Shown in pieces: positions 13,357 to 16,233 of a stretch of DNA of 43,316 nt; within the stretch, counting starts at the first letter, position 1; each line of letters opens with the position of its first letter. The DNA is from an uncultured Caryophanales bacterium. GTDB lineage: Bacteria; Bacillota_I; Bacilli_A; Acholeplasmatales; Anaeroplasmataceae. The DNA lies in assembly GCA_946626345.1 (NCBI GenBank), contig CAMOUB010000003.1, positions 1 through 43,316 of the forward strand. Direction: 5' to 3'. The notes under the pieces are model-generated. The model was given only the letters and a program-made list of their open reading frames with translations, was not told where the DNA came from and ran no database searches. A program made the position numbers and the translations under genes.

Positions 13357-13560
13357 TTATTTTGCTTCGTATCCAGCATCAATAATTGATTTTACTAAAT
13401 CTTCTCTAGCTACATTTTTTGTTACACTTACAGTAACATTTTTCTTATCAAGGTCAGCATTTGCCTCACTAACTCCATCAATCTTTAAGCATGCATCCTC
13501 TACATGCTTTTTACAATGCATACACATCATTCCATTAACATTAATTACTATTTTTTCCAT
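13357..13560 (-). CDS. copZ: Nested in-frame CopZ-like metallochaperone (67 aa), inside copA 3' end
   Basis: In-frame ATG at 13560 preceded by CTAATAAGGAGGAAAATAAT (strong SD, 8-nt spacing); product MEKIVINVNGMMCMHCKKHVEDACLKIDGVSEANADLDKKNVTVSVTKNVAREDLVKSIIDAGYEAK is a full HMA domain. Confidence 0.7.
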   Translation of the reverse strand: MEKIVINVNGMMCMHCKKHVEDACLKIDGVSEANADLDKKNVTVSVTKNVAREDLVKSIIDAGYEAK

Positions 13561-15891
13561 ATTATTTTCCTCCTTATTAGTAATTACATTTTTTATAAAT
13601 AATAAATCTTCTTCTTTAATTTTTCTATTATTTTTATGCTTATTAGCATCAAATAAATTTAAGCGTAAGGCATTTAATACTACAAATATACTTGAAAAGC
13701 TCATTGCAAGTGCACCATACCATGGCTTTAAGCTTACTAAATATTCATTATTTGTAAAATAAAATATACCAAATGCGATAGGTATCATTATTAAATTATA
13801 AAAGAATGCCCAGAATAAATTTTGTTTAATATTTTTTACTATTTCTCTTGATATTCTAATTGTTTTAACTAAATCATTTAGGCTTGATTTTACAAGTACA
13901 ATATCTGCTGAATCAATCGCAATATCAGATCCAGCTCCAATTGCAATGCCAATGTCTGCGCTAGTTAATGCTAAGGCATCATTAATACCATCGCCAACCA
14001 TTATAGTACTTCCATTTTTCTTTATTTTTTCAACTATATCTTTTTTATCTATTGGTAATACATCTGAAATAAAATAATCGATTTCTACCTCTTTTGCAAT
14101 AGATGAGGCTGTAATATGATTATCGCCTGTTAGCATTATAGGAATCAATCCTAATTCCTTTAGATTTTTTATAGCAATTTTAGAATCTTCTTTTATTTTA
14201 TCTGCAACAGCAACTATTCCTATTAATTCATTATCTAAAATAAATATTAATGGAGTTTTACCTGATTGGGCAATATCATTAATTATTTCTAATTTTGAAT
14301 CATCTATATTAATTAATTCTTTAGCATATTTTAAATTAATACCATATGCTAATTTATTATCAATAATTCCAGATACTCCTTTTCCACCTATTTCTTTAAA
14401 ATCTTTTACTTCTTTTTTCTCATAGCTACATTTATATTCGTTTATAGCACTAGCAAGTGGATGACTTGAATTTTCTTCTAATGATTTAATAATTGATAAA
14501 AATTTTGCTTGATCAATAAATGGAACTATACTATATACCTTAGGCTTACCCATTGTTATAGTTCCTGTTTTATCTAATATTACATATTTTGCATCCTTTA
14601 TATTTTCAATAGATAATGCATTTTTAAATAATATTCCATTTTTAAATGACAATCCAGAACCAACCATTATTGCAACAGGTGTTGCAAGGCCTAAAGCACA
14701 TGGGCATGATATAACTAAAACCATTACTGCTCTATTAATTGCATATGTTAATATTGTTTCATTTATATCTAGATTAATTACATTACCAAGTATAAACCAA
14801 TATGTAAATGCTAAAAGTGATATAAGCATAACAACTGGCACAAATATTGCTGCAACCTTATCAACTAATCTTTGAATTTTAGGCTTAGTTTGATTTAGGT
14901 CATATACCATTTTTATTATTTTAGATAATGAAGTATCTTCACCAACTGATTTAGCTTCACATTTTAAAATACCATTTAAATTTATAGTACCACTATAAAT
15001 ATTATCGCCTATTGTTTTATCAACAGGCATTGATTCTCCTGTTAGCATATTTTCATCTACTGATGATATACCATCAATTATTTTTCCATCTACAGGAATT
15101 GAATCTCCTGCCTTAACTATAAATATATCACCTATTTTAATATCAGATGCTTTTACTCTAACTTCTTTTCCATCCTTTATTATTGTTCCTTCTTTTGGTG
15201 CTAAATTCATTAATGATTTTAATGCATTTGTAGTTTTTCCTTTAGAATATTCTTCTAACATTTTTCCAATTGAAATTAATGTAGGAACCATACCTGCAGT
15301 TTCAAATGTTAAATTCATTGCATATTTCATAATCATATGATCATCATTTTTATAATAAGCCATAATAAATAATATAACTATAGCATATATAAATGATACC
15401 ATTGAACCTAAGGCAACTAATGTATCCATATTAGGACTTCTATTGATTAAAGCTTTAAATCCTGATATATAAAATCGTTTATTTAATAACATTATAATAG
15501 CTGATAAAATCATTAATATTAATCCCAATATTAAAGGATTTTTATCTAAATTAAATATATAAAAATGCATCATAAATCCCATTGATAAATAGAATAATGG
15601 AATTAGAAAAATTATTGAAAAAATTAATCTAATTATAAGAGGTTTAATCTTATTTTCTTCTTTTTCAAAATTTTTAGAGTTTATACCTTTAGCATTACTT
15701 TCATATCCTGCCTTTTTAATTGCCATATTGATTTCATCAATTCTTTTTGGATCATCGATATTACAATCCATTGTATTAGTTAATAAATTAACTTCAACAT
15801 CTGATACTCCATCAACACTTTTAGCAGCTTTACTAACATGAGATGCACATGCAGCACAGGTCATTCCTTTTATATCAAATCTTTGTTTCAT
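13357..15891 (-). CDS. copA: Copper-translocating P1B-type ATPase with N-terminal and C-terminal HMA domains
   Basis: MTCAACASH HMA; SCPCALGLATP; DKTGT; GDGINDALALTSADIGIAIG; C-terminal GMMCMHCKKH HMA. Confidence 0.96.
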   Translation of the reverse strand: MKQRFDIKGMTCAACASHVSKAAKSVDGVSDVEVNLLTNTMDCNIDDPKRIDEINMAIKKAGYESNAKGINSKNFEKEENKIKPLIIRLIFSIIFLIPLFYLSMGFMMHFYIFNLDKNPLILGLILMILSAIIMLLNKRFYISGFKALINRSPNMDTLVALGSMVSFIYAIVILFIMAYYKNDDHMIMKYAMNLTFETAGMVPTLISIGKMLEEYSKGKTTNALKSLMNLAPKEGTIIKDGKEVRVKASDIKIGDIFIVKAGDSIPVDGKIIDGISSVDENMLTGESMPVDKTIGDNIYSGTINLNGILKCEAKSVGEDTSLSKIIKMVYDLNQTKPKIQRLVDKVAAIFVPVVMLISLLAFTYWFILGNVINLDINETILTYAINRAVMVLVISCPCALGLATPVAIMVGSGLSFKNGILFKNALSIENIKDAKYVILDKTGTITMGKPKVYSIVPFIDQAKFLSIIKSLEENSSHPLASAINEYKCSYEKKEVKDFKEIGGKGVSGIIDNKLAYGINLKYAKELINIDDSKLEIINDIAQSGKTPLIFILDNELIGIVAVADKIKEDSKIAIKNLKELGLIPIMLTGDNHITASSIAKEVEIDYFISDVLPIDKKDIVEKIKKNGSTIMVGDGINDALALTSADIGIAIGAGSDIAIDSADIVLVKSSLNDLVKTIRISREIVKNIKQNLFWAFFYNLIMIPIAFGIFYFTNNEYLVSLKPWYGALAMSFSSIFVVLNALRLNLFDANKHKNNRKIKEEDLLFIKNVITNKEENNMEKIVINVNGMMCMHCKKHVEDACLKIDGVSEANADLDKKNVTVSVTKNVAREDLVKSIIDAGYEAK

Positions 15892-16187
15892 TATGAAAAC
15901 CTCCTAAATAGATCTACTATTTCATCAAGCTTTTCATAATCGCCATCTTTAATTCCATTTAATACACATGAATGCATATGATTATCTAAAATTACTGATG
16001 CTAATGATTTAATAGCCTTATCTACTGCTGATAATTGAATTAAGATATCAGCACAATATCTATCATCATTTATCATTTTTTTAATACCATCTAATTGTCC
16101 TGTAATTCTATTTAATCTTGACAATAATTTATTTTTATCATCATCACTTCTATTAACTTTAATATCTTTATTACAATTACATGCCAT
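15891..16187 (-). CDS. csoR: CsoR-family copper-sensing repressor
   Basis: DUF156 fold; Cys-x24-His-x3-Cys arrangement (YCADIL...NHMHSC) matches CsoR Cu(I) ligands; stop overlaps copA start (TAATG). Confidence 0.93.
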   Translation of the reverse strand: MACNCNKDIKVNRSDDDKNKLLSRLNRITGQLDGIKKMINDDRYCADILIQLSAVDKAIKSLASVILDNHMHSCVLNGIKDGDYEKLDEIVDLFRRFS

Positions 16188-16204: not shown

Positions 16205-16233
16205 ATAATATACCCCCATAGGGTATATGTCAA
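16205..16233 (-). promoter_or_regulatory. csoR-copA promoter with embedded CsoR operator
   Basis: Minus strand TTGACA-TATACCCTATGGGGGTA-TATTAT: -35, 17-bp spacer, -10; spacer is the inverted repeat TATACCC-N5-GGGTATA (16209-16227). Confidence 0.8.

Follow-up and report, generated by a model that had tools for sequence, protein, structure and literature searches.

The window, that is, the whole stretch of 43,316 nucleotides that was analyzed, carries on its minus strand a copA gene with a csoR-like gene directly 5' of it (Table 1). The csoR stop and the copA start overlap by one base (shared position 15891). The copA product consists of an N-terminal HMA, a P1B ATPase core, and a C-terminal HMA in one frame, with Pfam matches to E1-E2_ATPase, Hydrolase, and two HMA stretches, and it is above the cut-off for TIGR01525 and TIGR01511 (543 bits against a cut-off of 397 for the latter). 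The criterion for CopA, a DKTGT motif and a CPC transmembrane site in the same sequence, was met. By these core motifs and models the gene is classed as coding for a Cu(I) P1B-type ATPase, with copper transport and tolerance being inferred. The separate N-terminal HMA is an addition to the description given in an earlier note on this DNA. The promoter-like match upstream of csoR is likely the operon promoter, on weak evidence, and promoter-like sites in the region were no more numerous than in shuffled sequences.

Table 1. Features of the copA region of the window, with coordinates, strand, and basis.
Feature	Coordinates	Strand	Basis or remark
Promoter-like TTGACA-17-TATTAT 5' of csoR	16205..16233	minus	Consensus match 11/12
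csoR-like gene, predicted copper-sensing repressor	15891..16187	minus	PF02583 E 3.6e-29; RicR model E 1.3e-20, below cut-off
copA, predicted Cu(I)-exporting P1B-type ATPase, 844 aa	13357..15891	minus	Single uninterrupted frame
N-terminal HMA with CAAC site, the pump's own metal-binding domain	15700..15879	minus	PF00403 E 8.1e-15
C-terminal HMA with CMHC (chaperone-like CxHC) site	13366..13548	minus	PF00403 E 1.3e-13
Putative nested copZ, 67 codons plus stop, in frame with copA and sharing its stop (MEKIVINVNGMMCMHC...)	13357..13560	minus	ATG at 13560
Shine-Dalgarno (SD) AAGGAGG, 8 nt 5' of the internal ATG	13569..13575 (read 13575-13569)	minus	Direct reading

Anatomy of the nested frame

The earlier note had reported an in-frame ATG with a near-ideal SD inside the 3' end of copA, followed by 67 codons for a full, CopZ-like HMA domain with a CxxC site, and both observations were confirmed. 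At the junction the DNA reads CTAATAAGGAGGAAAATAATATG, and the A of the ATG falls at 13560; the codons ATT ACT AAT AAG GAG GAA AAT AAT ATG GAA AAA ATA there translate as I T N K E E N N M E K I. The gap between GGAGG and the internal ATG is 8 nt, and the duplex energy of the internal SD is -12.2 kcal/mol. As is required of a nested gene, the SD and start codon lie inside the longer gene and in frame with it. The SD stretch AAGGAGGAA can be recoded synonymously as AAAGAAGAA with the residues unchanged, and a free CopZ is predicted to begin with the peptide MEKIVINVNGMMCMHCK.

The nested frame matches HMA with an E value of 4e-14 (PF00403, 53 bits) and meets the criterion for a CopZ-type fold (an HMA of about 70 aa with MxCxxC), having 67 aa and the motif GMMCMHC. 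It also matches the solved CopZ structures or chains 2qif, 1k0v, and 6ff2. The NCBIfam cut-off for a CopZ equivalog or exception model was not met, the best model being NF047957 (E 2e-16, 60 bits against 85). The nested product is thus CopZ-like by fold and lies outside the curated CopZ models, and its existence as a free protein is inferred from the start signal.

The source genome is a metagenome-assembled genome (MAG) of 76% completeness, and a stop codon lost in sequencing or assembly therefore had to be weighed. No stop or indel was found between the ATPase and the C-terminal HMA in the window copA. The pump was present in 23 of the 27 genomes of the genus, nearly all with the same fused frame at 44–58% identity, and the same fused frame was found in the family of 55 genomes. 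An indel that fused two genes was rejected on the ground that the frame is open in essentially every relative, and it is very unlikely, as judged from these sequences, that an assembly error removed a stop. The sole broken copA was that of genome G008, with the break in mid-gene. There (G008:C48:5594-8142; L010 and L027) copA is split into two frames near residue 487 by a frameshift, real or of assembly, and the nested copZ with AAAGGAGG and the ATG is intact.

Conservation of the internal start signal

An in-frame start with an SD ahead of the C-terminal HMA was observed in 164 of 176 scored fused copA genes: 37 of 44 in the organism's own family, 51 of 53 elsewhere in the class, and 76 of 79 in named genomes. 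The class survey used a profile of the CopA tail plus the C-terminal HMA and recovered fused genes in many families. Seven further class loci without the anchor motif were left unscored; a start with an SD is present in five of them and absent from G219 and G161. The scan of named genomes gave 80 loci, 79 of them scored, in Clostridia, Negativicutes, Tissierellia, two Treponema MAGs, and others. Cultured hosts with the nested layout include Ruminococcus albus, Butyrivibrio sp., Acetatifactor muris, and Hornefia butyriciproducens. This set was found with the fused-gene profile, so it gives the frequency of the signal among fused genes and not the frequency of fusion. Two apparent exceptions, G313 and G324, were dismissed, both having an internal SD and ATG farther upstream or before a later HMA.

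The internal start usually lies 8–9 codons 5' of GMxCxxC. The 37 own-family genes have an in-frame ATG or GTG 6–10 codons before GMxC with SD energies of -4.9 to -13.4 kcal/mol. Over all scored genes the start codon is ATG in most cases and GTG or TTG in a few, and the spacing from SD to start is 5–11 nt with a mode of 8 nt.

In a null in which the same residues were recoded using the codon usage of each gene, the mean energy was -4.7 to -6.0 kcal/mol, as against about -9.4 to -10.8 for the internal SD (z -12.5 to -14.9; own family -10.8 against -5.1, z -14.9). The codons AAG, GAG, and GGA were enriched among the SD codons. The SD core occurred in all three codon phases, encoding KEE, KGG, and others, which indicates that the DNA and not the peptide is conserved, and a protein constraint on the K-E-E linker was rejected because phase and residues vary and the DNA motif is constant. 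Selection on the SD was thus observed at the nucleotide level. The second criterion for a nested gene, an initiation signal kept beyond protein constraint, was met by the synonymous null and the three phases.

A chance SD was rejected by these nulls together with controls at other in-frame ATGs. Within the family, an SD of at least -8 kcal/mol strength was found at 34 of 37 internal starts and at 2 of 830 other in-frame ATGs; across the sets, 0.2–2.2% of other in-frame ATGs reached -8. The linker leading into a second N-terminal HMA, which served as negative control, reached -8 in 0 of 26 genes and -4.5 in 1 of 26. The internal SD is stronger than the SD of the copA start itself (own-family means -10.8 and -7.0). 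The local mRNA structure around the internal start is weak (-3.3 kcal/mol against -11.3 elsewhere in copA), in part owing to base composition, the linker being A-rich.

SD-like codons within genes have been proposed to pause ribosomes, although this is disputed. A pause after the last transmembrane helix would let the pump insert or fold before the C-terminal HMA is made, without any free CopZ, and the SD site does lie just after TM8, where slowing could help. A start codon is superfluous for such a pause, but an in-frame ATG, GTG, or TTG comes 5–11 nt (mode 8) after nearly every SD, and no such site is present in the linker of the second N-terminal HMA. A pause also does not predict that start codon and SD are lost together where a stand-alone copZ is gained, as described below, and this explanation is regarded as very improbable.

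Free CopZ might also come from a separate internal transcript, or from out-of-frame termination and re-initiation, in place of direct initiation on the copA mRNA. A promoter-like match at 13627-13599 would fit the former, but promoter-like sites are no more frequent than in shuffled sequences. The latter could draw on a TAATAA that lies in another frame 5' of the internal SD in the window. Out-of-frame stops before the internal start, however, are not enriched (25 and 27 of 37, against about 72% elsewhere in copA), and re-initiation after such stops was rejected for this reason. Little credence can be given to either route, and direct initiation at the internal ATG remains the preferred reading.

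Stand-alone copZ genes and the history of the fusion

Seven of the 44 own-family fused genes lack the signal, six having no start codon and one having an ATG without an SD. A stand-alone copZ (about 70 aa) was found directly downstream of copA in 7/7 of these and in 0/37 of the genes with the signal, and a separate copZ is thus observed to replace the lost signal (Fisher p = 2.6e-8, a value inflated by relatedness). The downstream check was limited at loci on contig ends, such as L009 with only 30 bases downstream. On the family tree each trait changed 5 times, always concordantly, and the independent pairs on well-supported branches were in the expected direction in 4 of 4. With only 4 (starred) or 5 independent contrasts, a sign test cannot reach 0.05. 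In the same seven genes the C-terminal HMA has lost the CxHC histidine, which is kept in 32 of the 37 others.

Several small HMA genes were considered as exceptions or as the missing CopZ and were set aside. The HMA downstream of copA in G052, which also has the nested start, is of a type linked to ZIP transporters. Of two small HMA genes in the source genome, the one on G000:C12 is of the same ZIP-linked type and the one on G000:C91 belongs to a Zn/Cd ATPase. A recurrent small HMA protein, GMxCxMCEAHVNDIVRK...KSSHKK, was seen at L121 (G000:C12:15237-15413), L122, L123, and L124, and in the frame after copA in L028; at L121-L123 its gene sits after a ZIP (ZupT-like) transporter gene, and it is apparently a distinct family.

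Outside the family, two signal-less genes (G236 and L309) were accompanied by a separate CopZ-like gene. G236 was accordingly dropped as an exception, its 65-aa CopZ-like frame lying elsewhere in the genome. No separate CopZ was found for the signal-less G238, G219, and G161, and L310 has neither the signal nor a strong separate CopZ. A Bacteroidetes MAG (L281) has a fused copA with an ATG but no SD before the C-terminal HMA, and otherwise only an exported HMA protein. The Bacteroidetes phylum rarely uses the SD, so its absence there might be expected. Acetobacterium tundrae has the nested start and a stand-alone CopZ together, and Megasphaera massiliensis has another HMA protein besides the fused copA. 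The mutual exclusion of nested start and stand-alone copZ is an observation of the own family, looser outside it, and not a law.

The earlier note had asked whether relatives have separate genes, and sister families within the same taxonomic order do have copA and copZ separate and adjacent (L052-L062); in some of them the SD falls within the end of copA, and stop and start overlap as ATGA. At four loci of family f4 (L055, L058, L059, and L061) the copA stop and copZ start overlap as ATGA, and the copZ SD, AAGGAGG, lies inside the coding end of copA. A single base change could interconvert the fused and separate states. The note had further suggested that the fusion arose when the stop between copA and a downstream copZ was lost. 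This is not established as an event of the lineage of the window, since the fused nested layout is found throughout the family, in much of the class, and in Clostridia and Negativicutes and is therefore old. The joining is in no case recent in that lineage, and its polarity is unresolved. A tree of 170 genes showed 3 fused/separate changes and 10 changes of start state, and could not resolve the ancestral state (fusion or fission) because sampling had favored fused genes. Own-family copA genes fell into two distant groups in this tree, that of the window being nearer to class and Clostridia sequences, a pattern which suggests horizontal exchange of copA.

A history of joining implies that the signal could be an unused relic of a once-separate copZ, and the separate copA-copZ pairs of the sister families do place the SD identically. 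An unused relic would decay, whereas the signal is kept over families and classes, with synonymous selection in genes diverged to 45% identity and in three codon phases, and within the own family its losses are mainly in genes accompanied by a separate copZ. That the signal is a mere relic can hardly be maintained.

A probable two-product gene

Very probably, copA is a two-product gene that gives both a CopA-CopZ fusion and, by internal initiation, free CopZ. The proposal that the copZ initiation signal is still active was already made in the earlier note, and the support for it is strong but comparative only: the conservation in 164 of 176 genes, the synonymous selection, and the loss of the signal in precisely those own-family genes that have a stand-alone copZ next to copA. 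Internal initiation itself, the amount of free CopZ, and its copper targets are inferred, there being no ribosome or protein data. Ribosomes starting at the copA start would make the 844-aa pump with a CopZ domain tethered at its C-terminus, and other ribosomes would bind the SD within the coding sequence and begin at ATG 13560, making a free 67-aa CopZ of about 7 kDa, both products most likely coming from one mRNA. The tethered domain could load the pump in place. Elsewhere CopZ hands cytosolic Cu(I) to the pump (PMC7558416); the free form here may likewise scavenge cytosolic Cu(I) and pass it on to the pump, with the CsoR repressor as a further possible recipient.

In E. coli, CopZ arises from copA through a programmed -1 ribosomal frameshift (Meydan 2017 and Drees 2017, via PMC7558416 and PMC9548414). 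In both systems the copper pump and a free chaperone of CopZ type and HMA fold come, or in the window would come, from one copA gene. The contrast drawn in the earlier note, of another mechanism and another position, is correct: the E. coli product is the N-terminal HMA, released by early termination after a frameshift at a slippery site with a pseudoknot, whereas the internal start of the window copA precedes the C-terminal HMA and would be a second in-frame initiation. The window copA would thus do the job of the E. coli frameshift from the other end of the gene.

The operonic copZ-copA genes of Gram-positive bacteria (E. hirae, B. subtilis) and the separate genes of the sister families (L052-L062) resemble the window in CopZ fold and size and in the operon with a copper repressor, the sister families also in gene order and in the SD inside the copA end. 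In both, a stop codon lies between copA and copZ, whereas in the window frame and stop are shared, so that every full translation of copA would also yield a tethered CopZ. In type III secretion, SctQ/HrcQ/Spa33 has an internal in-frame start from which the C-terminal domain is made separately (PMC8553256, PMC6925163). The likeness is in-frame internal initiation giving a C-terminal domain as a second protein; the family and function are different, and the SctQ-type product assembles with the full-length protein and is not a metal carrier. In-frame internal initiation itself is thus already known, and what is new is a chaperone hidden in a pump gene by this means, and its breadth. No earlier description of a CopA/CopZ internal start was found in the open-access literature, subscription papers being mostly outside the scope of the search.

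It is probable, with less assurance than for the window gene, that copA genes with a C-terminal HMA routinely code for two proteins throughout the Bacillota, as well as in a few MAGs labelled Treponema or deltaproteobacteria. The nested copZ would then be old, widespread, and unannotated, with the ratio of tethered to free CopZ set by the internal SD, and lineages regaining a separate copZ would lose the nested start while the tethered domain diverges. The chaperone would have stayed hidden from annotation because its frame and stop are shared with copA. If this is true, it is a second route to a copper chaperone without a copZ gene, independent of the E. coli frameshift and used in a large part of the gut Bacillota. 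The prediction is directly testable in cultured gut species, and the five losses in one family, each accompanied by the gain of a separate gene, would offer a natural experiment on how nested genes are kept and resolved.

Variants of the C-terminal region were seen in family f17. Four copA genes (L205, L201, L208, and L232; 911–1006 aa) have two or three C-terminal HMAs in one frame with an SD and ATG before one of them, and several nested products are possible. Three other loci of this family (L313, L314, and L315) encode proteins of about 122 aa in which an N-terminal membrane helix and a CC motif, resembling FeoB-associated Cys-rich proteins, are fused to an HMA.
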